Positions 1,367 to 41,431 of a stretch of DNA of 64,000 nucleotides are shown here, in pieces; position 1 is the stretch's first letter; each line of letters opens with the position of its first letter. A model generated the notes under the pieces. That model saw only the letters and a program-made list of their open reading frames with translations. It was not told the DNA's origin and did no database searches. This stretch comes from Rhodoglobus sp. GTDB taxonomy: Bacteria > Actinomycetota > Actinomycetes > Actinomycetales > Microbacteriaceae. The translations under genes were made by a program, and so were the position numbers. The stretch is from contig JAODAQ010000054.1 of the NCBI GenBank assembly GCA_025463515.1, positions 1 through 64,000 on the forward strand. The letters run 5' to 3'.

Positions 1367-1858
1367 ATGAGACTGCTCATCCCTGCACTCGCTGTTCTCG
1401 CGCTGGCCGGCTGTGCGACCGCGGAGCCGATGCCCGTGCCGACCGTCGTCCCCACCCCGACGACGACGGCGCCCACGATGCTGCCGCTGCCGGGCACGGA
1501 CTTCCTGCTCGACCAGCTCGACACGTTCGCCGACGACACCCGGGTGCCGACGATCCGCTTCTCGACCGCGCACATCGCGGGCGAGGGGGAGGACTTCGAG
1601 TTCACCCTCACCGAGGGAACCTGGCTGCTGCGCGTCACGTGCGCCACCGACGCGAGCGACAGCGTCGACGTGACGCTGACCTTCACCGACGGCCGGCCGG
1701 ATGTCACGTACGAGGCGTACTGCGGCGAGACCCCGCCGACCGGCATCGTCACCGCGACGACGCAGAGCCCGTCGTTCACCGGCGGCGGCGCGGTCACGAT
1801 GCGCCTCGAGTCCGACAGCCGCTTCGTCGCGGCCGCGGGGCTCGTCCCGGCTGGTTGA
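1367..1858 (+). CDS. Putative secreted lipoprotein
   Basis: Small lipoprotein of about 163 residues. A short charged start (MRLLIPALAVLALAGC) ends in a clear lipobox, LAGC. A Pro/Thr-rich linker of about 30 residues follows, then a beta-rich globular part (EGTWLLRVTCATDAS, DVTLTFTDGRPDVTYE) with two cysteines that could form a disulphide. I recognise no family. An alternative GTG start lies at 1358; the ATG at 1367 gives a better signal peptide. The gene follows the glucosidase by about 10 bases. Its TGA stop and last two residues (Ala-Gly) are encoded by a GGTTGAGTAG repeat, so the original C-terminus may have been altered. Confidence 0.75.
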   Translation: MRLLIPALAVLALAGCATAEPMPVPTVVPTPTTTAPTMLPLPGTDFLLDQLDTFADDTRVPTIRFSTAHIAGEGEDFEFTLTEGTWLLRVTCATDASDSVDVTLTFTDGRPDVTYEAYCGETPPTGIVTATTQSPSFTGGGAVTMRLESDSRFVAAAGLVPAG

Positions 1859-1977
1859 GTAGGCGCCCTAGCGCCGTATCGAAACCCCGTGGGTTGAGTA
1901 GGCACCCTAGCGCCGTATCGAAACCTTGAAGTCGAACAACCGGTTTCGATACGTGCGCCAGAGCGCCCTACTCAACC
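1853..1977. repeat. Three copies of the GGTTGAGTAG/CGTATCGAAACC palindromic repeat
   Basis: Copies lie at 1853-1886 (+), 1892-1925 (+) and 1942-1977 (-). The first two are 34-bp short forms with 5-bp stems and a CCTA loop; the third is a 36-bp long form with a TCTG loop. Each has conserved ends GGTTGAGTAG and CGTATCGAAACC around a central hairpin. The first copy supplies the stop codon of the lipoprotein gene. Copies two and three form a tail-to-tail pair. Confidence 0.95.
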
Positions 1978-2033
1978 CGCCTAACCGCGTTCTGGGGGCA
2001 GCGACTCCGCGGGCGTTCTGTGAGGCTTGAGCC

Positions 2034-2414
2034 ATGGGGAAAGTCGTTCGGCTGCACGACGGGCTGCGCGCGCTCTATCCGGAGGCGATCGTCTTCGGGG
2101 GCATCGGCACATCTGACGTGGTGCGCGAGCTCGACCGCATCCGCGCCCTGCTCGGCCACTCCGCCATGACCGGCGACCAGTCGGCGCTCTCGATCGCGGT
2201 CAGCGGCGACGGCCTCGTGATCTGGGCCGAGTCACCAGTGCTCACGCTGCGCCTGGGCCAGCTCGCCGCGATCGGCATCGACGACGGCGCGATGGATGTC
2301 ACGGCTGTCGTCGCCGGACGCACCGCCGCCTTCACCGTTCCGCTCGCCACCCCCGCCGAGGCGCACCACATCGCGGAACGCGTGCTCGTCGCGATCGCGG
2401 GCCGCTCCGCCTGA
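2034..2414 (+). CDS. Conserved hypothetical protein
   Basis: 126-residue cytoplasmic protein of no family I recognise. It has no signal peptide or membrane segment. The N-terminal third is predicted alpha-helical (DVVRELDRIRALLGHS), and the middle is beta-rich (LSIAVSGDGLVIWAESPVLTLRLGQLAAIGI). A GAGG precedes the ATG by about 8 bases. Codon use is typical of the neighbours, so the frame is probably real. It stands alone between a repeat cluster and a convergent DUF2277 gene. Confidence 0.7.
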   Translation: MGKVVRLHDGLRALYPEAIVFGGIGTSDVVRELDRIRALLGHSAMTGDQSALSIAVSGDGLVIWAESPVLTLRLGQLAAIGIDDGAMDVTAVVAGRTAAFTVPLATPAEAHHIAERVLVAIAGRSA

Positions 2415-2419
2415 GCGGC

Positions 2420-2701
2420 TCAGGCCGTCGCGCGCTCCGGGAACCGCTTCAGCGAGCGCTCCTTCGCCTTCGCCGCCTCGACCTCGCGGTCTTTGGGCGG
2501 CCCGAAGGCGACGAGGTCTTCGAGCAGGTGCTGCGTGATGTGGGCGATCTCGTGCACGGCGCGGTTGAACGCCTCCTCGTTGGCCTTGGAGGGCTTGGTC
2601 GATCCACTGATCTTGCGCACGTACTGCAGCGCGGCGGCCTCGACCTCCTCATTGTTGGCGGCGGGCTCGAAGTTGTGGAGGACGTGGATGTTTCTGCACA
2701 T
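2420..2701 (-). CDS. DUF2277 family protein
   Basis: About 93 residues beginning MCRNIHVLHNFEP, the invariant N-terminus of DUF2277. The core EEVEAAALQYVRKISGSTKPSK and the C-terminal PPKDREVEAAKAKER are also characteristic. I chose the ATG at 2701 because family members start MCRNI; a GTG at 2710 would add three residues. Function is unknown; the proteins are small, soluble and widespread in actinobacteria. It converges on the preceding hypothetical gene with a 5-base gap. A palindromic repeat lies just upstream. Confidence 0.9.
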   Translation of the reverse strand: MCRNIHVLHNFEPAANNEEVEAAALQYVRKISGSTKPSKANEEAFNRAVHEIAHITQHLLEDLVAFGPPKDREVEAAKAKERSLKRFPERATA

Positions 2702-2728
2702 GCCCTCCACGGTAGTCCGGGCACGGCG

Positions 2729-2764
2729 GGTTGAGTAGGGCGCTCCGGCGCACGTATCGAAACC
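2729..2764 (+). repeat. Single long-form palindromic repeat copy
   Basis: 36-bp copy with loop TCCG and stem GGGCGC/GCGCAC, which carries one mismatch. Unlike the other loci it lies between divergent genes, in the promoter region of DUF2277 and of the membrane protein that starts near 2876. Confidence 0.92.
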
Positions 2765-2875
2765 CTCTCCCTCTAGTTAAGCCTGAGCGACACGTACCCC
2801 GATTCGCGCGCGGACGGGTGACAATTGCACGAAAGTCGCGCGGTTCCGAAAATCGCGCGAGGATCGGGGAACGCC

Positions 2876-3733
2876 GTGCCAGTGCTGGGGAATGGTTCAC
2901 GAGACAGGGTCGACAGGATTGCCGCGGGGGTGGGCGGTGCCGCCTTTCTGGCCGGCATCGTGCTCATGGGGATCGGGGCCGCGGCTCCCGCGCCCGCCGC
3001 GCCGCCGAGCGCGCTGAGTACCACCGTCGTGTCGAGCCCGGTCCCGGGGAGCGCCACGACCGAGACCGTGACCACGACGAACCCGCCGACCCGGCCGACG
3101 CTCGCTCCCCGCATAGTGACCGAGACCACCGTCACGGAGGGCGGCGAGCAAGGCTCCGTTCTCGTCACGACGTCGCCGGCCGCGGCATCCGTCGACCAGC
3201 CGTTCTTGGGCAGCAAGGTCGCCGTCGTCGTCGTGCAGCTGCTGCTCATCACGCTCGCGTCGCTGTTCCTCGCGTTCGCGACCCAGCGCATCCTGCTCGG
3301 CGAGTACTGGCTGCGCCGCGTCGCGGTCGCGGGCGTGCGCAGCAGCCCGATCGACGAGGGCGAGGCGAAGGCGGTCAAACAGGACATCGTGGCGGCGACC
3401 GAGGCGCCCGACCTCTCGCGGCCGCTCTTCGAGAAAGCGGGGGTCGTGGATGCCCGGCTCCGCCTGCTCCAGAGCCGCATCGCCCTCGAGCTGGAAGTGC
3501 GCAAGCTCGCGCAAGACCACGACGTTCCCGCGAGCCTGTCGATCCCGTCGGTCGTGCGCGGCCTCGTCGAGAAGAAGAAGATGACGCCCAAACTCGCCTC
3601 GGGCATCACGTCGCTCAACGACCTCGGCGACCGGCTCGGCGGGGGAGCGGAGATCACCCCGGACGCGATCACCCTCCTGACGGAGAGTTACGCGCAGGCC
3701 CTCGCCAAGATCGGCGGGAAGATCAAGCGGTAG
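2876..3733 (+). CDS. Membrane protein with two transmembrane segments
   Basis: About 285 residues from the GTG at 2876, which has GGGGA five bases upstream; a TTG at 2825 would lengthen it. The first hydrophobic segment (GVGGAAFLAGIVLMGIGAAA) is near the N-terminus. A Thr/Pro-rich stretch follows, then a second segment (VAVVVVQLLLITLASLFLAF). The remaining 150 residues are charged and predicted helical (DARLRLLQSRIALELEVRKLA). The topology puts the Thr/Pro loop outside and the helical domain in the cytoplasm. I recognise no family. Its 3' end overlaps the convergent MarR gene by 11 bases. Confidence 0.75.
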   Translation: MPVLGNGSRDRVDRIAAGVGGAAFLAGIVLMGIGAAAPAPAAPPSALSTTVVSSPVPGSATTETVTTTNPPTRPTLAPRIVTETTVTEGGEQGSVLVTTSPAAASVDQPFLGSKVAVVVVQLLLITLASLFLAFATQRILLGEYWLRRVAVAGVRSSPIDEGEAKAVKQDIVAATEAPDLSRPLFEKAGVVDARLRLLQSRIALELEVRKLAQDHDVPASLSIPSVVRGLVEKKKMTPKLASGITSLNDLGDRLGGGAEITPDAITLLTESYAQALAKIGGKIKR

Positions 3734-4115
3734 GGCTGAGCTCCGACGCCAGAACCTCGCGGTACACCTTGCGGGCCTTGGTGTGCACGGACGCACCCTC
3801 GCTCGTGAGCGCCACGAACATCGAGCGGCGGTCGGTAGTGCACTCCTCGCGCGTGAGGAGACCGGCGCGGGCGAGGCGGTCGACCACGCGGGAGAGCGCG
3901 CTCTGCGTCATGGGGGTGAGGTCGACGATGTCGCGCATCGTGCACTCTGGGGTGTTCGACTCCCACACCAGGTCGAGGATCTCGAACTCGCTCAGCCCGA
4001 GGTCGAAGTTCTGCTCGAGGGCGCGGTCGAGGTTCGCCGCAGTGGCGAGGTAGGTGCGCTGCCGTTCGCGCCAGTCGTCAATGACGTCGGCGTCCGTTCG
4101 CTGGGTCGTACTCAT
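3723..4115 (-). CDS. MarR family transcriptional regulator
   Basis: About 130 residues with the MarR winged helix: LGLSEFEILDLVWES, then the recognition helix region DLTPMTQSALSRVVDRLARAGLLTREECTTDRRSMFVALT, which includes the wing Asp-Arg-Arg motif. I chose the ATG at 4115 (MSTTQRTD), since upstream starts would run into the operator. It is divergent from the MFS exporter at 4202. Tandem 15-bp repeats sit between them, as expected for a repressor controlling both its own gene and the pump. The ligand is unknown. Confidence 0.9.
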   Translation of the reverse strand: MSTTQRTDADVIDDWRERQRTYLATAANLDRALEQNFDLGLSEFEILDLVWESNTPECTMRDIVDLTPMTQSALSRVVDRLARAGLLTREECTTDRRSMFVALTSEGASVHTKARKVYREVLASELSPTA

Positions 4116-4135
4116 GAACACAGCGTAACGTATGA

Positions 4136-4180
4136 CGCAACATTTCATGCGTTTGCATTGCATGAGTTTGCATTACATGA
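4136..4180. promoter_or_regulatory. Tandem 15-bp repeats, candidate MarR operator
   Basis: On the minus strand three contiguous 15-mers run TCATGTAATGCAAAC, TCATGCAATGCAAAC and GCATGAAATGTTGCG. The first two differ at one position and the third is degenerate. They fill the gap between the marR and MFS starts and are AT-richer than their surroundings. Binding by the adjacent MarR protein is inferred. Confidence 0.65.
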
Positions 4181-4201
4181 CACAGCATGTATCTTTGACG
4201 G

Positions 4202-5659
4202 ATGCCTGATACCTCCCCAGCAACAACCGCCCGCTGGTCCCGCGCCAGCTGGCTCCTCCTTCTCGTCGTCTGCATCGTGATCATGCTCGACGGCCTCGAC
4301 GTCTCCATGGTCGGCGTGGCACTCCCGTCCATCGGCGAGGAGCTCGGGCTCGACACCGACAACCTCCAGTGGCTCGTGTCGGCGTACGTGCTCGGCTACG
4401 GCAGCCTCCTCCTCCTCGGCGGACGGCTTGCCGACCTGCTCGGGCGCCGTCGCATCCTGCTCATCGCCCTGTCGGTCTTCGCCATCGCGTCGCTCGCGGG
4501 CGGCCTCGTCGACGACCCGACGATCCTCATCGCGTCCCGCTTCGTGAAGGGCGTGGCCGCGGCCTTCACCGCTCCGGCGGCCTTCTCGCTCATCACCACG
4601 AACTTCGCGGAGGGGCCCGCTCGCAACAAGGCGATCTCGATCTTCACGACGTTCGCGGCGAGCGGCTTCTCGCTCGGCCTCATCGTGGGCGGGCTCATGA
4701 CGACGCTCAGCTGGCGCTGGACCTTCCTCTTCTCGGTGCCGTTCGCCGTGACCGCGGTCGTGCTCGGCCTGTTCTTCATCCCGCGCGTGAAGCCCGAGAC
4801 CGGGGGCGGCCACGATTTCTGGGGCGCGCTGACGCTGTCGGCAGGGATGCTCGGGCTCGTCTACACCGTCGTCTCAGCGCCGCACGTGGGCTGGGGCTCG
4901 CTCCAGACGATCGGCGGCCTGGTCGGATCCGCACTCGTACTCGCGGGCTTCGCCGTGATCGAGAGCCGGGTCAAGCACCCGCTCATCCGGTTCGGGATCC
5001 TCCGGCAGGGCTGGGTGGCGCGCGCCAACCTGAGCGCGATCGCGCTGTTCGGCTCGTACGTGAGCTTCCAGTTCATCCTGACCATCTACCTGCAGTCGGT
5101 GCTCGGCTGGTCGCCGCTCAGCATGGCGCTCGCCCTGCTCCCGACCGGGCTCGTGGTCGTCGGCAGCGCTCCGTTCGCCGACCGGCTGATCGCGCGCTTC
5201 GGCTCGCGCCGGCTGATCATCGTGGCGCTCGCAGCGCTCTCCGCCGGTTACCTGCTGTTCCTGCGGGTGGACGCGACGCCGAACTACGTGATCGACATCC
5301 TGCCGTCCGTCATCCTGCTCGGCATCGGGTTCGGCCTCGGCTTCCCGTCGATCCAGGTGCAGGCCACCGACGGCATCTCCGACAGCGAGCAGGGCCTCGC
5401 GGCCGGGCTCGTGCAGAGCAGCTCGCAGGTGGGCGCGGCTCTCGTGCTCGCCGTGACCACGGCTCTCATCGCCGGTGGCCAGGCGTCGCCGGATGCCACG
5501 GCCGGCCAGTTGCTCGACCAGTTCCGCCCCGGGCTCATCCTGAGCCTCGGCGTCGCGGTCGCGGGCTTCGTCATCACGGTGCTCCCGCGCCGACGCCGCG
5601 CGGCAGTAGTGGCGCCGGTCGAAGAGACCTCGGAGCGCGAGCCGGCCCTCACGCACTGA
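4202..5659 (+). CDS. MFS transporter, DHA2 (EmrB/QacA) drug:H+ antiporter type
   Basis: 485 residues with about 14 predicted transmembrane helices. LDVSMVGVALPSI in helix 1 is typical of EmrB/QacA proteins. The loop motif GGRLADLLGRRR is MFS motif A. The protein should exchange protons for hydrophobic drugs or metabolites at the cytoplasmic membrane. It is divergent from a MarR gene with operator-like repeats between them, so it is probably repressed until a toxic ligand binds MarR. No good ribosome binding site precedes the ATG, so translation may be leaderless. A strong hairpin follows the stop. Confidence 0.93.
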   Translation: MPDTSPATTARWSRASWLLLLVVCIVIMLDGLDVSMVGVALPSIGEELGLDTDNLQWLVSAYVLGYGSLLLLGGRLADLLGRRRILLIALSVFAIASLAGGLVDDPTILIASRFVKGVAAAFTAPAAFSLITTNFAEGPARNKAISIFTTFAASGFSLGLIVGGLMTTLSWRWTFLFSVPFAVTAVVLGLFFIPRVKPETGGGHDFWGALTLSAGMLGLVYTVVSAPHVGWGSLQTIGGLVGSALVLAGFAVIESRVKHPLIRFGILRQGWVARANLSAIALFGSYVSFQFILTIYLQSVLGWSPLSMALALLPTGLVVVGSAPFADRLIARFGSRRLIIVALAALSAGYLLFLRVDATPNYVIDILPSVILLGIGFGLGFPSIQVQATDGISDSEQGLAAGLVQSSSQVGAALVLAVTTALIAGGQASPDATAGQLLDQFRPGLILSLGVAVAGFVITVLPRRRRAAVVAPVEETSEREPALTH

Positions 5660-5667
5660 GCACCGGA

Positions 5668-5700
5668 CGCCGGCTGCCCCTAGGGGTGGTCGGCGTTCGC
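5668..5700 (+). terminator. Probable intrinsic terminator after the MFS gene
   Basis: A 13-bp stem (5668-5680 with 5683-5695) containing three G-U wobbles closes on CTAG at its centre. It sits 9 bases after the MFS stop. Only a weak T run follows, as is common in high-GC actinobacteria. Confidence 0.55.
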
Positions 5701-5792
5701 GCGTGCTCACTCTTCACAAAGTGCTCCATCAGCCCCGATCTGGGGCAACTTTTGACGTCTCGACGGGCGAGGCCGCCCAATAGAGTGAAGTC

Positions 5793-6812
5793 GTGGCTAA
5801 GAAACCGTGGTTCCGTCGCCCCTCTCGCGTGATCCCCGCCGGCGCTCTCGCCCTCGGTGTCATCGCAGCCCTGGTCTGGACGCTGAGTCCGTGGCCGGCG
5901 TCGCTGCTGATCCGCGCGATGTTCGAGAAGGGCGCGGACGACACCGTCAAGGAGATGCTCCCGTACGCGCCGGATGCCGCGCTGCTCGATGAGCACCTCG
6001 ACGTGCAGTACGGGACATCCGGAGCCGACACGACGCTCGATGTATTCACGCCGAACGCGACCGTCGGACCGCTCGCGACCGTGGTGTGGATCCACGGCGG
6101 TGCCTGGATCTCGGGAGACAAGGACAACGTGCGCCCGTACGTGCAGATCCTCGCGTCGCGCGGGTACACGACCGTGAGCCTCAACTACACGGTCGGGCCC
6201 GAGGCGACGTATCCGACCGCGCTCACCCAGCTCAACGATGCGCTCGGGTTCCTCGTCGCCCACGCGGACGAGTACAACATCGACCCCGACCGCATCATCA
6301 TCGCGGGCGACTCGGCAGGATCGAACCTCACGAGCCAGCTCGCGACCCTCACCACGTCGCCGGCCTACGCCTCGACTGTCGGGATCGAGCCCGTCCTCAC
6401 CAAGAACCAGCTGCGCGCCGTCATCCTCAACTGCGGCATCTACGACGTGAGCGAGATCCCGAACGCGCCCGGCATCGGCGGCTGGGGCTTCCGCATCGCT
6501 CTGTGGGCGTACCTCGGCGAGAAGGACTGGTCGAACACTCCCGGCGGCGAGGAGATGTCGACGCTCGACTACGTCACTGCGGACTTCCCCGAGACGTGGA
6601 TCTCGGGCGGCAACGACGACCCGCTCACCCCCGGGCAGTCGGAGAAGCTCGCGGCTCGACTCACCGACCTCGGCGTGCCGGTCACGAGCGTGTTCTACCC
6701 GAAGGACCACGAGCCGGCCCTGCCCCACGAGTACCAGTTCCACCTGGACTTCGCGGACGCCAGGGAGGCGCTGGAGCAGACTGTCGCGTTCCTCGACCGC
6801 GTGAGTGGGTAG
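5793..6812 (+). CDS. Alpha/beta hydrolase, esterase/lipase type
   Basis: 339-residue serine hydrolase. After an N-terminal hydrophobic segment (RVIPAGALALGVIAALVWTL, probably a membrane anchor) come the oxyanion-hole motif HGGAW (101-105) and the nucleophile elbow GDSAG with Ser174. The C-terminal FYPKDHEPALPHEYQFHL supplies the likely catalytic His, and DDPLTPG the acid. This arrangement fits the alpha/beta-hydrolase-3 / hormone-sensitive-lipase-like group, which acts on carboxyl esters. The GTG start is chosen because the anchor follows immediately. The natural substrate is unknown. It stands alone. Confidence 0.88.
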   Translation: MAKKPWFRRPSRVIPAGALALGVIAALVWTLSPWPASLLIRAMFEKGADDTVKEMLPYAPDAALLDEHLDVQYGTSGADTTLDVFTPNATVGPLATVVWIHGGAWISGDKDNVRPYVQILASRGYTTVSLNYTVGPEATYPTALTQLNDALGFLVAHADEYNIDPDRIIIAGDSAGSNLTSQLATLTTSPAYASTVGIEPVLTKNQLRAVILNCGIYDVSEIPNAPGIGGWGFRIALWAYLGEKDWSNTPGGEEMSTLDYVTADFPETWISGGNDDPLTPGQSEKLAARLTDLGVPVTSVFYPKDHEPALPHEYQFHLDFADAREALEQTVAFLDRVSG

Positions 6813-6855
6813 CCGCGCCGCCACCAGTCACGATAGGGGCTAGTCACGGAGCCGG

Positions 6856-6870
6856 GAGAGTTCTACTCTC
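6856..6870. promoter_or_regulatory. Perfect 6-bp inverted repeat upstream of the SDR gene
   Basis: GAGAGT-TCT-ACTCTC ends six bases before the ATG of the SDR. It is placed where a protein-binding operator or a translation-blocking hairpin could act. No regulator gene is adjacent. Confidence 0.3.
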
Positions 6871-6876
6871 GGCCCC

Positions 6877-7671: not shown

Positions 7672-7697
7672 TCCACCTCACCACTAAGGAGCAACGA

Positions 7698-7754
7698 ATG
7701 GCCGGGAAGGACGTGGCCGACGACGTGCTGGCATGGCTCGAGCGGGTTGAGTAG
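7698..7754 (+). pseudogene. 18-codon reading frame truncated by a palindromic repeat
   Basis: An ideal ribosome binding site (AAGGAG at 7686-7691, six bases before the ATG) starts the peptide MAGKDVADDVLAWLERVE. The last codons and the TAG stop (GAGTAG) belong to the long-form repeat that begins at 7745. The strong initiation signal with so short a product suggests the start of a former gene cut by repeat insertion or deletion. A genuine short peptide or a leader cannot be excluded. Confidence 0.45.
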
Positions 7755-7822
7755 CGCGCTCTGGCGCGCGTATCGAAACCGCGAGTGAGGTTTCGATGCG
7801 GCCGCGGGCGGCCTACTCAACC
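7745..7822. repeat. Tail-to-tail pair of palindromic repeats
   Basis: Long copy 7745-7780 (+; stem GCGCGC/GCGCGC, loop TCTG) and short copy 7789-7822 (-; stem GGCCG/CGGCC, loop CCCG), separated by 8 bases. The left copy ends the 18-codon frame, and the right copy provides the TGA of the hydrolase gene on the minus strand. Confidence 0.95.
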
Positions 7823-8602: not shown

Positions 8603-8632
8603 TGTGTCGGCTGCCGGACGTAACTTGGCGTT

Positions 8633-9424
8633 GTGCCGGAGCATGTCGAGACCTGGTGGGCGCGTCGTCAGCGCTCGAAGGTCGCGCGCGTGCCGTACCC
8701 GGTGGGCTCGTACCGAGAGTTCTGGGAGACCTACCCCGTGCTCGTGAACCAGTACCACCCCGAGCTCAACCGCGGCATCGTATTGTCGCAGGTGCCGCCG
8801 GCCGCCGACGTGTGGCTGCTCTGGCAGTGCGACATGGGGCACCTGTTCGTCGCGACTCCGACCGAGCAGCGGCTGCGGCCGGGGCGCTCGCGGCGCCGGT
8901 CCACGTGGTGCCCCGAGTGCACGGGGCTCGCCGGCGCGTCCGTGTCGAAGCCGCGCTCGACGCTGTGCGCGACGTCGCGCGCCGAGGAGTACGTCGTGGG
9001 GGAGGCCTTCGTGAGCGACTGTGCCCCGCGCCCGGCCTCGGCGGCAGAAGACCTGCTGCGCCAGAGGCTGCTCGACCGGCTGCCGCTCATCACGTCCAAC
9101 GCCGTGAGGGTGCCGCGCCCGTTCTTCACGCACCTCGAGGTGTGGCCGGACATCGTGCTGCCAGACTTGCGGGTCGCCATCGAGTACGACACGACGGGAC
9201 GCGACGGCCTCGAGCATGTCGGCAAGCGTGAGCTCGTCGATATCCGGAAAGACCGCCTGCTGCGCGCCGCGCACTGGGAGGTCGTCCGGGTGCGCACCGG
9301 AAAGCTCAAGCCGATCGGGCCGCACGACGTGCATGGCGGCACCTCGGCCCGCACGGTCGACCGCGTGCTCGACCGGCTGCGGGAGATCCGCGGCGACCTG
9401 ATCGTGAACTCCTGGCTGGCGTAG
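8633..9424 (+). CDS. Zinc-ribbon domain plus restriction-endonuclease-fold protein
   Basis: 263 residues with two apparent modules. The N-terminal part has a two-pair metal-binding pattern: WQCDMGHLF supplies Cys and His, and STWCPECTG supplies two Cys, as in DUF4379-like zinc ribbons. The C-terminal part (from about residue 140) reads HLEVWPDIVLPDLRVAIEYD then DIRKDRLLRAAHWEVVRVR. That is the PD-(D/E)xK pattern of Vsr/DUF559-type nucleases, with Asp, Glu/Asp and Lys candidates in order. The function is therefore a possible DNA nuclease or nicking enzyme; this is inference. The GTG start is close to the divergent hydrolase. No methylase is nearby. Confidence 0.6.
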   Translation: MPEHVETWWARRQRSKVARVPYPVGSYREFWETYPVLVNQYHPELNRGIVLSQVPPAADVWLLWQCDMGHLFVATPTEQRLRPGRSRRRSTWCPECTGLAGASVSKPRSTLCATSRAEEYVVGEAFVSDCAPRPASAAEDLLRQRLLDRLPLITSNAVRVPRPFFTHLEVWPDIVLPDLRVAIEYDTTGRDGLEHVGKRELVDIRKDRLLRAAHWEVVRVRTGKLKPIGPHDVHGGTSARTVDRVLDRLREIRGDLIVNSWLA

Positions 9425-9427
9425 GCG

Positions 9428-9503
9428 GGTTGAGTAGGGCGCTCTGGCGCCCGTATCGAAACCGGTAGGCCAAGGTTTCGATACGGCGCCGGGGCGCCTA
9501 CTC
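9428..9503. repeat. Tail-to-tail pair of palindromic repeats
   Basis: Long copy 9428-9463 (+; perfect stem GGGCGC/GCGCCC, loop TCTG) and short copy about 9474-9503 (-; stem GGCGC/GCGCC, loop CCCG). The outer end of the second copy has degenerated from GGTTGAGTAG to GCGCGAGTAG. Its TAG is the stop of the coiled-coil gene on the minus strand. Confidence 0.92.
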
Positions 9504-10750: not shown

Positions 10751-10751
10751 G

Positions 10752-13547: not shown

Positions 13548-13586
13548 GCGCTCGACGTTACCCCCGCGCCCCGACACCCCCGCCCA

Positions 13587-24181: not shown

Positions 24182-25537
24182 GTGGCACAGAACATCGGCA
24201 CCCTCGTCATCCTCGGTGCGGGAGGGGACCTCACGTCGAGGCTCCTGCTGCCCGGCCTCGCGTCGCTCCTGGGCTCCTCGCGGGGCAAGGAGCTCCAGCT
24301 GATCGGCGTCGACCGCGGTGACCTGACGGATGCCCAGTGGCGCTCGCGGGTCAAGGGCGCATTCAAGGCGGAGCCGTCGGCGCTCGCGGCATCCGTGGCA
24401 TCGAGCGCACGCTACATCAAGGCGGACGTGACGAATCCGGATGACCTCGCGCGCGTGCTCGCCGAGGCCACCGGCCGCGTCGCCCTGTACTTCGCGCTGC
24501 CGCCCGCGGTGACGATCCTCGCGTGCCAGACCCTCGCGACCATGACGCTGCCGAAGGGCATCATGTTCGCCCTCGAGAAGCCGTTCGGCACCGACCTCGC
24601 GAGCGCGAAGAAGCTCAACCGGCTGCTCGAGACGATCCTGCCGGAGGAGCAGCTGTTCCGGGTCGACCACTTCCTCGGCAAGTCGACGGTGCTCAACCTG
24701 CTCGGGCTGCGCTTCGCGAACCGCATCTTCGAGCCGCTGTTCTCCGCGCCGAACGTCGAGAAGGTGGAGGTCGTGTTCGACGAGAGCCTCGCCCTCGAGA
24801 ACCGGGCCGGCTACTACGACAAGGCGGGGGCGATGGTCGACATGGTCCAGAGCCACCTGCTTCTCGTGCTCGCCCTCACCGCGATGGAGCCGCCGGCCAG
24901 CCTCGACGCGAACGACCTGCGCGGCAACATGGCGCAGGTGCTGCGCGCGACCCGGCTGCGCGACCGCAAGGGCACGTCGAGCCGCCGCGCGCGCTACGGC
25001 GCCGGCACCATCGGCGGCCGCAAGCTTCCCGCCTACGTGAAAGAGGAGGGGGTCGACCCCGTCCGCGGCACCGAGACCCTCGCCGAGCTCACGCTCGAGA
25101 TCGACAACTGGCGCTGGGCAGGGGTGCCGTTCATCCTGCGCTCGGGCAAGGCTCTCGGCGACACCCGCCAGGACATCCTCGTGACGTTCAAAGAGGTGCC
25201 GCACCTTCCTGCCGGCCTCACGGGCGTGCCCGGGCCGTCGTGCCTGCGCATCTCGCTCAAGCCCGCGACCCTCGAGCTCGACCTCATCATCAACGGGCAG
25301 GGCGACCCGTTCGTCCTCGAGCGCAACGTTCTGCACAGCGACCTCGGCGCGGGCGAACTGAGCGCCTACGGCGAGGTGCTGGCCGGGATCATGGAGTGCG
25401 ACCCCACCCTCTCGGTGCGCGGCGATGTCGCCGAGGAGTGCTGGCGAATCGTCGAGCCCGTGCTCGCGGCCTGGCGCAAGGACGCGGTGCCGCTCGAGAC
25501 CTACGCGGCAGGCTCGAGCGGTCCGAAGGGCTGGTGA
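24182..25537 (+). CDS. Glucose-6-phosphate dehydrogenase family protein
   Basis: 451 residues with the G6PD fold. The NADP motif is GAGGDLTSRLLLPGL (canonical GASGDL-x-x-R). EKPFGTDLASAKKLN is the conserved helix. RVDHFLGK stands where canonical enzymes have RIDHYLGK, keeping the catalytic His but replacing Tyr by Phe. GRCENGTTSRRARYG-like positions (RKGTSSRRARYG) are altered in the C-terminal part. It may be a divergent paralogue rather than the main Zwf; no opcA, tal or gnd is beside it. GTG start. It follows the sigma gene by 10 bases on the same strand. Confidence 0.82.
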   Translation: MAQNIGTLVILGAGGDLTSRLLLPGLASLLGSSRGKELQLIGVDRGDLTDAQWRSRVKGAFKAEPSALAASVASSARYIKADVTNPDDLARVLAEATGRVALYFALPPAVTILACQTLATMTLPKGIMFALEKPFGTDLASAKKLNRLLETILPEEQLFRVDHFLGKSTVLNLLGLRFANRIFEPLFSAPNVEKVEVVFDESLALENRAGYYDKAGAMVDMVQSHLLLVLALTAMEPPASLDANDLRGNMAQVLRATRLRDRKGTSSRRARYGAGTIGGRKLPAYVKEEGVDPVRGTETLAELTLEIDNWRWAGVPFILRSGKALGDTRQDILVTFKEVPHLPAGLTGVPGPSCLRISLKPATLELDLIINGQGDPFVLERNVLHSDLGAGELSAYGEVLAGIMECDPTLSVRGDVAEECWRIVEPVLAAWRKDAVPLETYAAGSSGPKGW

Positions 25538-25545
25538 CCTTGGCG

Positions 25546-25616
25546 GGTTGAGTAGAGCGCTCTGGCGCTCGTATCGAAACCAGGTTTCGATACGGCCGCG
25601 GGCGGCCTACTCAACC
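25546..25616. repeat. Tail-to-tail pair of palindromic repeats
   Basis: Long copy 25546-25581 (+; stem GAGCGC/GCGCTC, loop TCTG) and short copy 25583-25616 (-; stem GGCCG/CGGCC, loop CCCG), only one base apart. The second copy supplies the TGA stop and final Ala-Gly of the VOC gene. The first starts 8 bases after the G6PD stop. Confidence 0.95.
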
Positions 25617-25982
25617 AGCCTGCGGCACCAGCTCCTGCAGCGCCCAGCCGTTGCCGTCCACGTCGTCGAAGTAGACGAAGCGGCCCCAGGGCTGCTCGTC
25701 GACGTCGCTGGCCTCGATGCCCCGCTCCCGGAGGAACGCGAGCGCCTCGTCGGCACTCGCGACGACGCACTGGATGCCCTTCTGCGAGCCCGGCGCCATC
25801 GGCGAGAAGTTGAGGTCGAGCACGATCGAGCAGGCGGACCCCGGGGGAGTGAGCTGCACGAAGCGGACCTCGTCGCTCACGGTGATGTCGTGGTCGGCGT
25901 TGAAGCCGGCCTTCACGTAGAAGTCCTTGGCCTTGTCGATGTCGGCAACGGGTACGGAGAGGAGTTCGATTTTCATGTCCAT
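25611..25982 (-). CDS. VOC (glyoxalase/bleomycin-resistance) family protein
   Basis: 123 residues, one VOC module: KIELLSVPVADIDKAKDFYVKAGF at the N-terminus and GRFVYFDDVDGNGWALQEL at the C-terminus. The latter contains the usual metal-ligand Glu near the end. It could be a metal-dependent lyase/dioxygenase or a drug-binding protein; the sequence does not say which. The start is ATG 25982 or 25976. Its stop comes from the repeat. Upstream sits a 36-bp element also found before the WYL-linked ABC exporter, so it may belong to that regulon. Confidence 0.88.
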   Translation of the reverse strand: MDMKIELLSVPVADIDKAKDFYVKAGFNADHDITVSDEVRFVQLTPPGSACSIVLDLNFSPMAPGSQKGIQCVVASADEALAFLRERGIEASDVDEQPWGRFVYFDDVDGNGWALQELVPQAG

Positions 25983-30762: not shown

Positions 30763-30778
30763 TCAAAGGAGATCAGGC

Positions 30779-32238: not shown

Positions 32239-32304
32239 TCACTCCACGGTAGGCACCCCGTCTGGACGGTTGCTGGACGGGCGCTCGGCAGTACTAGTGG
32301 TTGA

Positions 32305-34340: not shown

Positions 34341-34417
34341 CGATGTCCTCCCAGACGATTGATCCGAGGGTAGCAACAGGGCGTCGTCGCGGCAGATTCC
34401 CGCGTTAAAGTTGCCTC

Positions 34418-36145: not shown

Positions 36146-36209
36146 AGTCCACAGGCGCCGCTCACAGTTCTCACATCTTTCATCGAGCCGATCGAGAGAT
36201 ACTGGCGGA

Positions 36210-36617
36210 ATGCGCGCGCGACGATACCTCCTCACAGGGATCGCCGCGATCTATTTCGGGGCGCTCATCGGCCTGACCTTCGTGCCGGGCTCGGCGTCCA
36301 ACCGGGCGCTCTGGGTCTGGCCGTTCGTGGCGTTCGTGCCCGTCGGCATCCTTCTGCTCCTCCTGCTCGGCCGCCGTCGCTGGTGGGCCGCCATCGGGTT
36401 CGCGGTGCTCGGTTCTGCGTGGATCGAGGCCGCCCAGTCCGTGTGGATGCCCGTGGGCTACGCCGAGGTCTGGGACATCGTCTGGGCGAGCTCGGGCGCG
36501 ATCGCGGGCGTGCTCGTCGCGGGCATCCTCACCTCGATCAAGGTCCGTTCCATGCGTGTACATGAACCTCACAGGATCGTCGCGCAGGCTGGACGCAGGG
36601 AAATACCCCAGGACTGA
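36210..36617 (+). CDS. VanZ-like family membrane protein
   Basis: 135 residues with four predicted transmembrane helices. WIEAAQSVWMPVGYAEVWDIVWASSGAIAGV fits the VanZ consensus (E-x3-Q, then D-x2-W/N, then G). VanZ confers low-level teicoplanin resistance by an unknown mechanism; most relatives are uncharacterised. About 65 bases downstream of the phosphoesterase, so it may share its transcript. Confidence 0.85.
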   Translation: MRARRYLLTGIAAIYFGALIGLTFVPGSASNRALWVWPFVAFVPVGILLLLLLGRRRWWAAIGFAVLGSAWIEAAQSVWMPVGYAEVWDIVWASSGAIAGVLVAGILTSIKVRSMRVHEPHRIVAQAGRREIPQD

Positions 36618-36766
36618 GCAAGCGCCGGCGTGAATTACCGCCGGGATGACGCTTCCTTCGTGAGTCCGTGCAGCACCACCCGGTGCCAGACCCAACCCGA
36701 TGTGCCGTTGTTGCACGTGCCTGCTGTGCCTATCGCGCGGGGCGCCCAGTTCGAAAGTCAGTCGCT

Positions 36767-37447
36767 TTGCTTACCTCTCCACGTTTGTCGTTCCCGTCCG
36801 CCCGCCCGCTCTCGGAGCCCCGCCTCATCGGCTTCCTCAACGCCAACCGGCGCCTGCTGGTCATGACCGCCGTGGTGGCCACCGGGCTGCTCACGAGCGT
36901 CCCGTCGCTGCCCGCCCAGGCCGAGGCGCTGCTCAACCCGCCGCCCGCACCCGTCGTCCTGCAGTCGTTCACCGCCCCGGCCGCCGTCGAGGCGCCCGTC
37001 GTGCGCGACGGCTTCAGCATCTCCACGTACTCGGTAGTGCAGTGGCCAGTGCCCGTGGGCACCCCCATCAGCAGCGGTTTCGGCCTGCGCGAGTGCGACG
37101 GCTGCAGCACGGACCACACGGGAACCGACTTCAACCCCGGCAACGGCTTCGCGATCCCCGCGATCGCGGACGGCGTCGTGACCGAGGCGGGCTGGGACTC
37201 GACCGGCTACGGCAACAAGGTAGTGATCCAGCACAACATCGACGGCCAGATCGTCTCGACCCTCTACGCGCACATGCAGGACGACTCGATCGCCGTCACC
37301 GTCGGCCAGGTCATCACGCGCGGCACCATCCTCGGCCTCGTCGGCGAGACGGGCGAGGCCACCGGCCCGCACCTGCACTTCAGCGTCATCATCGACGGCA
37401 CCATGGTCGACCCGTACCCGTGGCTGCTGTCGCACGTGAATGTGTGA
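36767..37447 (+). CDS. Secreted M23 peptidase (LytM-like)
   Basis: About 226 residues from the TTG at 36767. The start is uncertain; a GTG at 36668 would add 33 residues of unlikely composition. NRRLLVMTAVVATGLLTSVPS followed by LPAQAEA looks like a signal peptide. The LytM domain has DHTGTDF (first His and Asp zinc ligands) and GPHLHF (HxH). Intact motifs suggest an active endopeptidase that cuts peptidoglycan cross-links. Signal peptide plus a short Pro/Ala linker suggests release into the wall. Confidence 0.88.
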   Translation: MLTSPRLSFPSARPLSEPRLIGFLNANRRLLVMTAVVATGLLTSVPSLPAQAEALLNPPPAPVVLQSFTAPAAVEAPVVRDGFSISTYSVVQWPVPVGTPISSGFGLRECDGCSTDHTGTDFNPGNGFAIPAIADGVVTEAGWDSTGYGNKVVIQHNIDGQIVSTLYAHMQDDSIAVTVGQVITRGTILGLVGETGEATGPHLHFSVIIDGTMVDPYPWLLSHVNV

Positions 37448-37450
37448 GTT

Positions 37451-37479
37451 GAACAGAGCCTGATTCTCAGGTTCTGTTC
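37451..37479 (+). terminator. Hairpin between the peptidase and the GGGDF-repeat gene
   Basis: GAACAGAGCCTGA (37451-37463) pairs with TCAGGTTCTGTTC (37467-37479), one G-U wobble, three-base loop TTC. It starts 4 bases after the peptidase stop and ends 13 bases before the next ATG. It probably ends the peptidase transcript but could also affect translation of the next gene. Confidence 0.55.
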
Positions 37480-37492
37480 CTAGGCTTCCGCC

Positions 37493-38062
37493 ATGGGACT
37501 CTTCGATCGACTCTTCGGATCCGAACAGCAGAACACACAGCCGCCGCCCGCGCGGGCGCGCACGACGGACGAGATCGCCGTCGAGCGCTACCGGTACCTC
37601 CTGCGCACAGCCCCGCCCGAGACGCTCGAGCAGGTGCACGCCGAGGCCTTCGCCAAGCTCACCGACGAGCAGCGCACGCTCGTCTACCAGGAGCTCTCGC
37701 AGTCCGGCGAGCAGCCCAAGGGCACGGATGCCGCATCCCTCGCCCAGGCCGCGACCCGCTCCGAGCTCCGCCAGCCCGGCACCCTCGAGCGGTCGTTCCA
37801 GGGCCCGAGCTTCGGCGCGATGGTCGGCAGCTCCCTCCTCGGCACGGTCGCCGGCTACGTGATCGGGTCGGCCATCGTCTCGGCCTTCCTCCCGACGGAC
37901 ATGGGCGGCACGGATGCCTCGGCCGACGGCTCTTCGGACGCCTCCGCCGATTCGGCCGATGCGGGCGCCTCGGCTGACTCGTCCGGCGGCGACTCGGGCT
38001 TCGGCGACTTCGGCGGCGGGGGTGACTTCGGCGGCGGCGATTTCGGCGGCGGCGACTTCTAG
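37493..38062 (+). CDS. Hypothetical protein with Ser/Asp and GGGDF repeat tail
   Basis: 189 residues. The N-terminal 90 residues are helical (VERYRYLLRTAPPETLEQVHAE). A hydrophobic glycine-zipper segment (AMVGSSLLGTVAGYVIGSAIV) follows at about 110-130. An acidic Ser/Ala/Asp linker leads to the tail FGGGGDFGGGDFGGGDF. No known family. The tail is low-complexity and could be a membrane-associated or phase-separating element. A regular actinobacterial orphan, not in an operon. Confidence 0.75.
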   Translation: MGLFDRLFGSEQQNTQPPPARARTTDEIAVERYRYLLRTAPPETLEQVHAEAFAKLTDEQRTLVYQELSQSGEQPKGTDAASLAQAATRSELRQPGTLERSFQGPSFGAMVGSSLLGTVAGYVIGSAIVSAFLPTDMGGTDASADGSSDASADSADAGASADSSGGDSGFGDFGGGGDFGGGDFGGGDF

Positions 38063-38137
38063 CCGCGGCTCGGCGACCCGCAGCCGACCGCGGCGCGCCA
38101 ACCGCACCGTGCGCGGCAGGTCCCTTACCCTCGACCG

Positions 38138-38971
38138 GTGACTGACGACCGGTATGGCAGCGATGTCCTCGCGGGGTTCCGCCAGCAGCGCGGCCCCGCT
38201 CCCGTTCCGGCCCTGGAGGTCGAGAAGGGCCTCGTGCTCGAGGAGACCGGCACCGGTTTCGTGGGCGCGATCATCGCCTACGCGAACGGCCTCATCGAGC
38301 TGGAGGACCGCAAGGGCTCCGTGCGCACCTTCTCGCTCGGGGCGGGATTCCTCGTCGACGGCAAGGCCGTCAAGCTCGTCAAGCCGACCCCCGGCGCCGC
38401 TCCCGCCCTGCGCAGCGCGTCTGGCTCCGTGGCTGTCACGGACCACACCGCGCGTGTCGCGCTGCCCAGCCGCATCTTCGTGGAGGGCCGCCACGACGCC
38501 GAGCTCGTGGAGAAGGTCTGGGGCCACGACCTGCGCGTCGAGGGTGTCGTCGTCGAGTACCTCGGGGGCGTGGACGACCTGGAGGCGCTCCTGAAGGAGT
38601 TCGGGCCGAGCCCGGAGAAGAAGGTCGGTGTACTCGTCGACCACCTCGTGACCGGGTCGAAGGAGAGCCGTATCGCCGAGGCGGTCGGCCGCGGGCCGTA
38701 TCGCGACGATGTGCTCGTGGTCGGGCATCCGTTCATCGATGTCTGGCAGGCGGTCAAGCCGCAGCGCCTCGGGCTCGCGGCGTGGCCGGTGATCCCGCGC
38801 GGTACCGAGTGGAAGCACGGCATCTGCGCCGCGCTCGGCTGGCCGCACGAGGACCAGGCGGACATCGCGCGCGCCTGGCAGCACATCCTCGGCAGGGTCG
38901 ACAGCTACGCGGACCTGGAACCCGAACTGCTCGGCCGGGTCGAGCAGCTTATCGACTTCGTCACGGCCTAG
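38138..38971 (+). CDS. DUF3097 family protein
   Basis: 277 residues matching DUF3097 end to end: DRYGSDVLAGFRQQRG at the start, GKAVKLVKPTP, FVEGRHDAELVEKVWGHDLR in the centre and GRVDSYADLEPELLGRVEQLIDFV at the end. The RIFVEGRHDAELVEKVWG block resembles a TOPRIM-like fold. Function unknown. GTG start. Soluble. Confidence 0.9.
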   Translation: MTDDRYGSDVLAGFRQQRGPAPVPALEVEKGLVLEETGTGFVGAIIAYANGLIELEDRKGSVRTFSLGAGFLVDGKAVKLVKPTPGAAPALRSASGSVAVTDHTARVALPSRIFVEGRHDAELVEKVWGHDLRVEGVVVEYLGGVDDLEALLKEFGPSPEKKVGVLVDHLVTGSKESRIAEAVGRGPYRDDVLVVGHPFIDVWQAVKPQRLGLAAWPVIPRGTEWKHGICAALGWPHEDQADIARAWQHILGRVDSYADLEPELLGRVEQLIDFVTA

Positions 38972-39033
38972 ACGCACCAAACTCTCAGCACAACCCCTGA
39001 AAACATCCAGAGGCGCGACGTACGGTCGAAGGG

Positions 39034-40536
39034 ATGGACGACTACCGCTCAGCCCCCGCGGACCACCCCCAGGTGCACTTCCCTGCGGGGCGCCAGTTCG
39101 CGCTCACGTGGGGCATCCCCGACGACTTCGGGGGCATGACCAGCGCTCTCCTGCACCGGTCGCGCGCGATCGTCCGGCTCGCGGGCCAGCCCGTCGACCT
39201 CCTGACGTTCGACGCCCGGCCCGACTACCCCTCCGTCGACCGCGACCTGCGCGATCGCGGCGAGCTCATCGACGGCGTGACGCTCATCAACCTCTGGGAC
39301 TGGTTCCGCGAGCACGACCTGCCGACGGATGCCCCGGGCTCCCTCAACCTCGAGAAGCACCCGTTCACCCCGCTGGGCGCCGACCAGGCCCACGTGTCGA
39401 CGTGGCGCGGCGACCGCGAGCTCAGCCGCGCGCGAGTGGACGGTGGTACGACCCTCCAGGTCGACTACTACCGCGAGGACGGCACGCTGCTCGCGAGCGA
39501 CCGCCGCGATGTCGACCAGGAGGGCGCCGCCGGCAAGCGCGCCGTCGTGCTGTGCGACCGCCAGGGCCGGCCTGTGCGCTCGTGGAGCGGCGTCTGGGCC
39601 TTCTACCGGTACTGGCTAGATGCACTCCGGCAGCGCGAGCCGTCGTTCATGATCGTCGACTCGAAGCCCGTCGCGGCCTTCATGGCCACCTACAAGCGCA
39701 AGCGCGCCGTGGTCGTGCACGTCGTCCACAGCTCGCACCTCGCCGAGGACGACACCGAGAGTGCGCGCCTCAAGGCCAGTCGCCGGCCGGTGTTCGAGAA
39801 CCTCGACGGCTACGACGCCGTGGTATTGCTCACGCAGCGGCAGAAGGCGGATGTCGAGCGCCTCGCCGGAGTCCGCGACAATGTCGTGGTCATCGGCAAC
39901 GGGCGCGAGCTGCCCACCGTCAGCAAGCAGGAGCCGCGGGCGGTCGGCGACGGGATCATGCTCGCGTCGCTCACGACGCGCAAGCGCGTCGACCACGCCG
40001 TGCGTGCTGTCTCGCGAGCCGCGGTCGGGCATCCGGAGCTCTCGCTCGATGTGTACGGCGACGGCCCCGACCGCGACCACGTTGCGGCGACGGTCGCCGA
40101 GCTCGACGCGCCGGTGCGGCTGCGCGGCCACGTCCCGGACGCGCGGGAGCTCCTCGGCAGCGCCTCGTTCCTCCTGCTCACGAGCACCTCGGAGGGGCTG
40201 CCTCTCGTTCTCGTCGAGTCGATGGCGGTGGGGTGCATCCCGATCGCCTACGACATCCCCTACGGGCCGGCCGACGTGATCCAGCCGGGCCGCAACGGCT
40301 ATCTCGTGCCCGGCGGCGACCCGGACGCGGTGGCCCGCGCCATCGACGACCTCCTCGCGCTCAGCCCGCGCCAGGTGGCACGGCTTCGGCGGCACGCCCG
40401 CCGGTCGGCGCAGCAGTTCTCCGACCTCGCGATCACCCGCCTGTGGAGCCGTGAGCTGCGCGCCGCCGCCGCGCGGAAGGCCGCCGCATGGGCGTCGTCG
40501 TCCCAGCAGCAGGCGTCCGAGCAGCAGGTGGGCTAG
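39034..40536 (+). CDS. Glycosyltransferase family 4 (TagE-like)
   Basis: 500 residues. FALTWGIPDDFGGMTSALLHRS opens the donor-fold domain of GT-B enzymes. STSEGLPLVLVESMAVGCIPIAYDIPYGPAD contains the E-x7-E signature of GT4. The N-terminus resembles poly(glycerol-phosphate) alpha-glucosyltransferases (TagE), which decorate teichoic acids. It would transfer a sugar from an NDP-donor to a cell-surface polymer. AGGG-like RBS precedes the ATG. It stands alone, so the acceptor is unknown. Confidence 0.85.
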   Translation: MDDYRSAPADHPQVHFPAGRQFALTWGIPDDFGGMTSALLHRSRAIVRLAGQPVDLLTFDARPDYPSVDRDLRDRGELIDGVTLINLWDWFREHDLPTDAPGSLNLEKHPFTPLGADQAHVSTWRGDRELSRARVDGGTTLQVDYYREDGTLLASDRRDVDQEGAAGKRAVVLCDRQGRPVRSWSGVWAFYRYWLDALRQREPSFMIVDSKPVAAFMATYKRKRAVVVHVVHSSHLAEDDTESARLKASRRPVFENLDGYDAVVLLTQRQKADVERLAGVRDNVVVIGNGRELPTVSKQEPRAVGDGIMLASLTTRKRVDHAVRAVSRAAVGHPELSLDVYGDGPDRDHVAATVAELDAPVRLRGHVPDARELLGSASFLLLTSTSEGLPLVLVESMAVGCIPIAYDIPYGPADVIQPGRNGYLVPGGDPDAVARAIDDLLALSPRQVARLRRHARRSAQQFSDLAITRLWSRELRAAAARKAAAWASSSQQQASEQQVG

Positions 40537-40793
40537 CGGCGGGAGTACTCGCGGCGCACCATGCCCACGCAGTGGTCCCACGAGAGCGACTGCCCGACCT
40601 CGACGGCGCGGGCCAGATCCGGGCCGTAGAGGGCGACGAAGACCGCGCCCACGCGCTCCACGAAGCCCATGGTCTCCCGGGCGGCGAGGACCGCGTACAG
40701 GTCGTCGCGCACGATCGCGATCTGCGGCTCCGTCGAAGTGTTCTGATGCTGCGGCCGCCGGCGGCGCTCGCCGGTCTGCAGTGTGTCCGTCAT
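40533..40793 (-). CDS. Small hypothetical protein
   Basis: 86 residues, charged at both ends. The core RDDLYAVLAARETMGFVERVGAVFVALYGPDLARAVEVGQSL is predicted helical. I recognise no family. The C-terminal RREYSRR and N-terminal RRRRP suggest nucleic-acid or acidic-partner contacts. The stop overlaps that of the glycosyltransferase in a CTAG. Codon use looks genuine. Confidence 0.6.
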   Translation of the reverse strand: MTDTLQTGERRRRPQHQNTSTEPQIAIVRDDLYAVLAARETMGFVERVGAVFVALYGPDLARAVEVGQSLSWDHCVGMVRREYSRR

Positions 40794-40900
40794 GGGCAGC
40801 TCCTCACCGAGTTACCGAAATGGCCCCCGAACGGGGTTGGACTAGTCCATCATCGACAAACGATTTCGACCAGAGCTTGACAAGGTCGAGACTGGGCCCC

Positions 40901-41404
40901 ATGAGCGACCGGACGAAGACCATCACCTGGCAGGACCCGATGATCGGGGCGAAGGCCATGACCGCCCTGAGCGGGCTCGACTACATGCGCGCGCTGCTCG
41001 CGGGGGAGTATCCGCCGCCGCCCATCCTCGAGGTCATGAACCTGCACCTCGAGTCGGTCGAGGTGGGCACCGTGACGTTCACCGCGCAGCCCGACGAGTC
41101 CCACTACAACCCGATCGGCGCCGTCCACGGGGGTTTCGCGTGCACGGTGCTCGACTCGGTTGCCGGATGCGCCGTGCAGACGACCCTCCCGCTGGGCTTC
41201 GGCTACACCTCCCTCGAGATCAAGGTGAACTACCTCGCGGGCATCACCGCGACGACCGGGCCGCTCACGGCGGTGGGAACGGTCATCAAGCCGGGCAAGC
41301 GGGTGGCCTTCGCCGAGGGCGTGCTCACCGACTCGAGCGGCAAGGTGGTGGCGACGGCGAGCAGCACGCTGCTGGTCTTCCCGATCCCGCCCCAGGCGGG
41401 TTGA
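40901..41404 (+). CDS. PaaI/YdiI-type acyl-CoA thioesterase (hotdog fold)
   Basis: 167 residues. HYNPIGAVHGGFACTVLDSVAGCAV is the central hotdog helix with the active-site H-G-G and Asp. GYTSLEIKVNYLAGI and GTVIKPGKRVAFAEGVLTDSSGKVVATASS complete the fold. It hydrolyses aromatic or fatty acyl-CoA thioesters. ATG at 40901 (MSDRTKT). The TGA stop with the final Ala-Gly is supplied by the GGTTGAGTAG repeat. Confidence 0.92.
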   Translation: MSDRTKTITWQDPMIGAKAMTALSGLDYMRALLAGEYPPPPILEVMNLHLESVEVGTVTFTAQPDESHYNPIGAVHGGFACTVLDSVAGCAVQTTLPLGFGYTSLEIKVNYLAGITATTGPLTAVGTVIKPGKRVAFAEGVLTDSSGKVVATASSTLLVFPIPPQAG

Positions 41405-41431
41405 GTAGGCCGCCCGCGGCCGTATCGAACC
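41399..41431 (+). repeat. Single short-form palindromic repeat copy
   Basis: 33 bp, stem GGCCG/CGGCC, loop CCCG; the 3' end has GAACC with one A missing. It forms the stop codon of the thioesterase gene. Confidence 0.92.

Follow-up and report, generated by a model that had tools for sequence, protein, structure and literature searches.

The window, i.e., the whole stretch of 64,000 nucleotides (nt) analyzed here (positions 1 to 64,000 of contig JAODAQ010000054.1, assembly GCA_025463515.1, Rhodoglobus sp.), carries eleven copies of a short palindromic repeat at six loci, and the genome from which it comes encodes a small stand-alone GIY-YIG nuclease whose gene lies between copies of the same repeat. 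The whole repeat is written as GGTTGAGTAG...CGTATCGAAACC, and the exact pattern used for searching was GGTTGAGTAG-N8-25-TATCGAAACC, which has 8 matches in the window and 0 in 100 shuffles. A looser scan (at most 2 mismatches per half) found 10 copies, and the eleventh, at 9474, was recognized by its tail, its head being without GGTT. An earlier note on this DNA had counted eleven copies at six loci, and every start position that it gave proved correct (8 exact and 3 altered copies). A cluster of three consists of a 34-nt copy at 1853..1886 (+), at whose internal TGA the open reading frame (ORF) 1358-1858 ends, a 34-nt copy at 1892..1925 (+) with A opposite C at stem position 4, and a 36-nt copy at 1942..1977 (-) that stands tail-to-tail with the 1892 copy; a lone 36-nt copy is at 2729..2764 (+), and both it and the 1942 copy have a mismatch at stem position 2, G opposite A. 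Tail-to-tail pairs follow: the 36-nt copy at 7745..7780 (+) is the left half of a pair whose right half, 34 nt at 7789..7822 (-), has one tail mismatch and contains the TGA at which a predicted minus-strand gene ends (..FLAG*); the 36-nt copy at 9428..9463 (+) lies 3 bases past the TAG closing ORF 8633-9424 and is tail-to-tail with a truncated copy at 9474..9503 (-) that has lost the outer GGTT; and the 36-nt copy at 25546..25581 (+) is paired with the 34-nt copy at 25583..25616 (-). A lone copy at 41399..41431 (+), its tail short by one base, contains the internal TGA at which ORF 40451-41404 ends. The reported variants at stem position 2 were confirmed (G-C at 9428, C-G at 7745 and A-T at 25546). 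The statement that the center of the repeat keeps pairing holds as regards covariation and was too strong as regards constant pairing, three copies in the window having a stem mismatch.

The earlier note had proposed a search of the complete genome, and further copies indeed abound: in the source genome (G000; 3.32 Mb, 78 contigs, 95% complete) the exact pattern has 195 copies and the reversed-pattern control 0, and a looser core pattern has 211 copies. By sequence similarity the organism belongs to Microbacteriaceae, a same-family locus (L100) being 90% similar to Aurantimicrobium (L139), and it lies, on weaker grounds, near Agrococcus (L075, from the same genus, against L168, 84% over 256 bases). 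The stretches retrieved from this genome contain 70 intact copies of 37 distinct sequences, 33 of these sequences being 34 or 36 nt long. Among the 19 distinct 36-mers, 96.8% of the stem cells are paired against 92.6% after shuffling, and stem covariation, the other check that had been proposed, is 0.126 against 0.053, neither value being reached in 500 shuffles; two stricter covariation counts were matched by 24 and 31 of 500 shuffles. Changes on both sides occur at three stem pairs (equaled by 24 of 500 shuffles), nine pairs are invariant, and stem position 2 is C-G in 5 sequences, G-C in 4, G-U in 3, A-U in 1, U-G in 1 and unpaired in 5. Across related genomes the outer stem varies in step: among 251 distinct cores, collected with only the core fixed and the stem not imposed, 207 have complementary bases at each of its four positions. 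The constant feature is an asymmetric GAG/TCGA internal loop (GAG 5', TCGA 3'), whose letters were preset in the search pattern. At its 5' foot the inner stem carries GTAG in the repeat class of G000, and GAGGAG, GAGC or another form in classes related to it. Of 746 elements, 627 keep a G three bases 5' of the outer stem, a base without an equivalent on the opposite side. Moreover, the single-strand DNA fold of the pair at 25536-25626 is a four-way junction in which head pairs with head and tail with tail (z -6.6). The repeats are a dispersed, structured family of palindromes of the repetitive extragenic palindromic (REP) kind, and the conserved structure which the note had proposed is supported.

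Of 27 cases of neighboring copies at most 200 nt apart, counted in the stretches of G000 with the nuclease locus excluded, 20 are tail-to-tail, 7 point the same way and 0 are head-to-head, and 15 of the 19 tail-to-tail pairs at most 60 nt apart (nuclease locus included) join one 34-mer and one 36-mer. With genes called by a rough in-house script, 40 repeat clusters were placed, 19 of them in convergent, 15 in tandem and 3 in divergent gaps, with 2 more falling within predicted genes and 1 lying at an edge, the background of all gaps between predicted genes being 40 convergent, 74 tandem and 56 divergent. Predicted gene ends that fall inside a copy (n=26; G000 and its congeners G159 and G165) use the TGA of the repeat in 22 cases and the TAG of GGTTGAGTAG in 4, and 21 of the 22 predicted genes ending at the repeat TGA have Ala-Gly at the C-terminus. 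Insertion of the copies at a native TGA stop was considered as an explanation and is weakened, since at one gene end compared two relatives continue with other residues.

The nuclease was first seen in a repeat-dense stretch of G159, where a 94-residue GIY-YIG protein is encoded with repeat pairs on both sides. The source genome has its own gene on a contig other than that of the window (G000:C69:106363-106635, 96 residues), flanked by two repeats on one side and four on the other, one repeat providing the stop codon. Among 27 genomes of the genus the nuclease was found in 6, exactly those in which the looser pattern also finds repeats, and the other 21 were scored as having neither (Fisher p 3e-6, shared ancestry ignored); the copies number 211 in G000, 136 in G165, 88 in G171, 35 in G159, 7 in G169 and 1 in G152. 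In 150 genomes of the family, where three repeat classes were counted and genomes with at least 10 copies were taken as repeat-rich, the nuclease occurs in 40, i.e., in 26 of 37 repeat-rich genomes and in 14 of the 113 others (odds ratio 17). The GIY-YIG nuclease is very probably the partner of the repeats.

The G000 protein is of the UPF0213 type, matches PF01541 (E 2e-17), and has sequence matches to two solved UPF0213 proteins. Its AlphaFold model has a mean predicted local distance difference test score (pLDDT) of 92, and the nearest structures by Foldseek were 1zg2 (E 1e-5) and 1ywl (3e-3), followed weakly by Slx1 (0.04). Residues Y5, Y15, G17, R25, H29, E62 and K63 are invariant in 23 of 23 aligned proteins; catalytic residues are presumably among them, an assignment that we take from the GIY-YIG literature, and the protein, judged by these invariant residues, looks like an active nuclease.

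The association extends beyond the family. A scan of GTDB genomes retained the best 80 of at least 571 relatives, i.e., the nearest and not a random draw, and words of at least 14 letters common to both gene flanks were present at 53 of 78 loci (two of the 80 were too short in flank for this test) against 14 of 999 control windows. We formulated the rule w-GAG-x-TCGA-w', in which w is four bases and w' its complement, and found it satisfied within 300 nt of the gene, on one side or both, at 72 of 80 loci (on both at 47), against 83 of 1015 control windows of the same 80 loci, which may themselves contain real dispersed copies. Within the family and genus the rule is satisfied in 35 of 37 loci; the true motif has 484 matches against 15, 24, 13, 11 and 96 for five altered-motif controls, and when genes were placed by tblastn, 108 of 117 loci satisfied the rule, 77 of them on both sides; at 52 of these 77 loci the nearest copy on one side and that on the other stand tail-to-tail across the gene. 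Loci with the rule span eleven phyla and more: the element is present on at least one side in Actinomycetota (27/30), Bacteroidota (25/27), Pseudomonadota (6/6), Chloroflexota (5/5), Fibrobacterota (1/2), unplaced genomes (2/3) and six more phyla (1/1 each), and in 0/1 of Cloacimonadota, a single positive locus in a phylum being weak because 8% of the control windows are positive too. Five loci were examined after the rule was set, as a small but less biased test, of which those of Methylobacterium and Sphingomonas were positive, and E. coli yhbQ and two Bacillaceae genes, encoding more distant proteins, had no such repeat in the stretches read. Repeats of the CCCTGAGCTTGTCGAAGGG type are familiar from many genomes, and they too obey w-GAG-x-TCGA-w'. 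In flanks L202, L194 and L177, all outside Actinomycetota, elements overlap or are interrupted by further copies of their own, in the manner of arrays of bacterial interspersed mosaic elements (BIMEs).

Repeat class and nuclease also go together. The classes differ by compensated changes, GGTT..AACC versus GGTC..GACC and GAGT..A versus GAGG..C, and a class test scored those 19 of the 40 gene-bearing genomes whose retrieved flank showed one of the three classes, the omitted ones being 10 genomes without a retrieved flank and 11 with a flank of another class, mixed or empty. The flank class was the genome's commonest class in 18 of 19, which 0 of 100,000 shuffles equaled. In the sole miss, G018, a second nuclease gene sits between copies of its commoner class, and in G036, one of the omitted genomes, a further copy of the nuclease gene is flanked by its commonest class. 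The flanking class also tracks protein phylogeny, since a tree of 108 proteins requires 44 class changes and shuffled labels require 62.5 (sd 2.7). Beside the nuclease gene of G171 lies a tandem array of half-elements (TCGAGCGGAGC, 23-base period; L078 ~1790-1915).

As to mobility, the six nuclease loci of the genus occupy five different neighborhoods within the few kb compared, second gene copies of G159 and G165 being left out. G165 and G169 share one neighborhood with the nuclease gene turned round; the syntenic stretches, L235 4634-4909 of G169 and L237 5499-5783 of G165, look as if the gene had been inverted between flanking repeats. At the site of the window pair 7745-7822, a pair of this kind also stands in G171; in G156 the aligned stretch has no pair and the neighboring gene ends differently; and in G164 the alignment starts just past the pair, its stretch being without such an element; this comparison fits a putative insertion whose ends are not fixed.

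Building on the observed structure, copy number, linkage, co-occurrence and class matching, we infer cleavage, mobilization and a route of insertion as follows. The copies would be miniature non-autonomous repeats, and their partner the stand-alone GIY-YIG nuclease encoded on the other contig. A copy that becomes single-stranded would form an imperfect hairpin with an outer stem w/w', the invariant GAG/TCGA internal loop and an inner stem of free but covarying sequence, and a tail-to-tail pair would form a four-way junction. The nuclease may recognize the hairpin shape together with outer bases and nick it when single-stranded, e.g., on the lagging-strand template, and repair or copying of the freed ends would then set new copies, mostly at gene 3' ends; the frequent tail-to-tail pair could be a deletion derivative of a unit of repeat, nuclease gene and repeat. 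That the nuclease nicks the repeats and thereby spreads them, a proposal drawn from sequence comparison, has in our judgment about an even chance of being right. The wider proposal, that these elements form one class of miniature mobile DNA which obeys one rule in at least eleven phyla, owes its spread to a nuclease of about 95 residues, without any transposase, has its junction resolved by that nuclease and includes the CCCTGAGCTTGTCGAAGGG-type repeats, is offered tentatively, as possible and short of probable.

Several observations weigh against spreading by the nuclease. Comparison of two pair sites with relatives yielded neither a clean empty site nor a target duplication, and no clean ends. 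In five single copies folded alone, the minimum-energy DNA fold is the inner hairpin only, with the outer stem absent, and for one of them, 25583-25616, the fold is no more stable than expected by chance (54 of 200 shuffles). The motif rule was derived partly from loci that were later counted, and the co-occurrence counts ignore shared ancestry. G156, scored as having neither nuclease nor repeats, contains at least one decayed copy overlooked by the pattern, and of the 11 genomes omitted from the class test on account of their flank, five (G127, G053, G036, G077 and G140) contain at least 10 copies of the three classes; in G171, with 88 copies and outside the class-test sample, the only nuclease found has flanks of another class. 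The tree restricted to the family is weaker, with 14 changes against 19.3 for shuffled labels (minimum 15), and for the first x base alone the changes number 11 against 11.9. Further, 11 of the 37 repeat-rich genomes are without the nuclease gene, i.e., G045 (636 copies), G069 (126), G025 (109), G079, G057, G037, G040, G012, G143, G089 and G009; a GIY-YIG domain search of these eleven found a frame of at least 643 residues, the size of UvrC, in ten of them, with two extra weak matches in G040 in frames of about 320 residues and no match in G012, which is 82% complete. GIY-YIG nucleases, finally, are known to cut and not to join.

The decayed copy of G156 (L232 904-937, minus strand) has two changes in conserved letters, in a genome without a nuclease match, and is likely a relic of past loss there. 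G045 has 636 copies of the GGTC class, an estimated completeness of 100% and no small GIY-YIG gene found, and its congener G116 has 172 copies and a nuclease gene. Loss after spread, or a merely auxiliary role of the nuclease, would explain repeat-rich genomes without the gene. For REPs without a REP-associated tyrosine transposase (RAYT), loss of the RAYT after spread is suspected in the available part of one source (PMC6006769).

The linkage between nuclease and repeats would equally serve a pair in which nothing is spread, the nuclease cutting single-stranded DNA at the repeats for another purpose (processing or screening of transforming DNA, repair, or resolution of hairpins), as reported for the Ssn nuclease of Neisseria, and the repeats multiplying by recombination and gene conversion. 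The established absence of joining activity in GIY-YIG enzymes fits such a role, as does the four-way junction formed by the repeat pair in the single-strand fold; the model's weak likeness to Slx1, a structure-specific nuclease (E 0.04, after the UPF0213 structures), points the same way, and E. coli YhbQ, a member of this domain family, carries the annotation of a DNA damage response nuclease. By itself, however, this explanation accounts neither for the patchy gain of many copies together with the gene within the genus nor for a gene that sits in a repeat-bounded unit at different places, and we regard it as a serious possibility that falls somewhat short of being probable. It is improbable that the repeats are transcription terminators or mRNA ends spread by ordinary recombination, with the nuclease gene a hitch-hiker in repeat-rich DNA: the clusters at gene ends (19 of 40 convergent) and the 22 predicted gene ends on the repeat TGA and 4 on the TAG would suit terminators, whereas a hitch-hiking gene would not lead one to expect the element at 72 of 80 nuclease loci against 83 of 1015 control windows, or a match between nuclease and the genome's repeat class in 18 of 19.

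The earlier note had likened the family to REP/RAYT systems and had suggested looking for one gene, especially a Y1 transposase, flanked by full copies. A gene between copies does exist, but it encodes the GIY-YIG nuclease and not a Y1 transposase. The Y1 transposase family PF01797, which the control search detected in 5 of 14 known genomes (among them E. coli), has no match in the source genome and matches only 1 of the 150 family genomes (G011) and 0 of the 30 that bear the exact repeat, so that the REP/RAYT link is not borne out. The sole match is G011:C11:24558-24878, in a genome without the three repeat classes. A REP/RAYT system whose transposase is absent from the assembly or too diverged would draw on the incomplete assembly (95%, in 78 contigs) and on the GTAG at the inner stem's 5' foot, a placement shared with canonical REPs in the part of PMC6006769 that was available; with PF01797 in 0 of 30 repeat-bearing family genomes, and with GTAG unconserved in related classes in which GAGGAG and GAGC forms are common, it is already largely refuted and we hold it to be extremely unlikely.

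An Rfam scan of the window found no family at the repeats, the only hits above cut-off being two tRNAs and a thiamine pyrophosphate (TPP) riboswitch, i.e., tRNA-His at 52958-53033 (-), tRNA-Arg at 56018-56091 (-), and the riboswitch at 46162-46263 (+), barely over the cut-off (54.7 versus 54.3 bits). Literature searched with the letters of the repeat gave nothing on these repeats among the matches listed, and no description of a pairing between a GIY-YIG nuclease and REP-like repeats was among the matches listed, which is weak evidence of novelty as most subscription papers were not covered; GIY-YIG and RAYT genes both appear in a clade table in the available part of PMC9465073. For some REP-like repeats neither a RAYT nor another enzyme is known, and in the present case a single small nuclease family accompanies such repeats in presence, place and sequence class, with relatives doing likewise in several phyla. 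The spread of transposase-free repeats becomes approachable through a simple assay of cutting of a 36-nt oligonucleotide by the 96-residue protein. If the proposal is true, a large group of palindromic repeats would have one explanation, and the family would be a source of nucleases with readable single-strand target sites.

Among known systems, integron attC sites were considered and dropped, as their boxes are in the wrong order. The UPF0213 proteins B. halodurans BH0048 (1zg2), E. faecalis EF2693 (1ywl), E. coli YhbQ and B. subtilis YazA have the same domain and similar length, whereas E. coli yhbQ and the two Bacillaceae genes, the latter two having one gene order in common, are without the repeat in the stretches read. 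In Neisseria, the Ssn nuclease (SsnA) is said to be a small stand-alone GIY-YIG enzyme that cuts single-stranded DNA at a repeated genomic target, which reportedly does not obey GAG/TCGA; both that system and the present one would combine a small single-domain GIY-YIG protein with a repeated genomic sequence, which here also lies beside the gene and is the putative target. CGTC-tagged REPs are likewise REP-like and without a dedicated transposase; their tag sequence differs, and GIY-YIG is not mentioned in the available part of that text (PMC3733652). REP and BIME elements and the inverted REP doublets (REPINs) that go with a RAYT, the REPtron, share with our repeats the short high-copy palindromes mostly at gene ends, the inverted pairs, a gene flanked by its own repeats and a patchy distribution, as far as the available parts of the sources describe them (PMC6006769, PMC3733652). 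The copies analyzed here, often inverted pairs in the manner of REPINs and BIMEs, differ from the REPtron in that their partner is a GIY-YIG nuclease and not an HUH/Y1 transposase (TnpA-REP), and in that the part conserved across the related classes is the internal loop GAG/TCGA, the GT[AG]G foot of REPs having its counterpart (GTAG) in the class of G000 and other forms in related classes.

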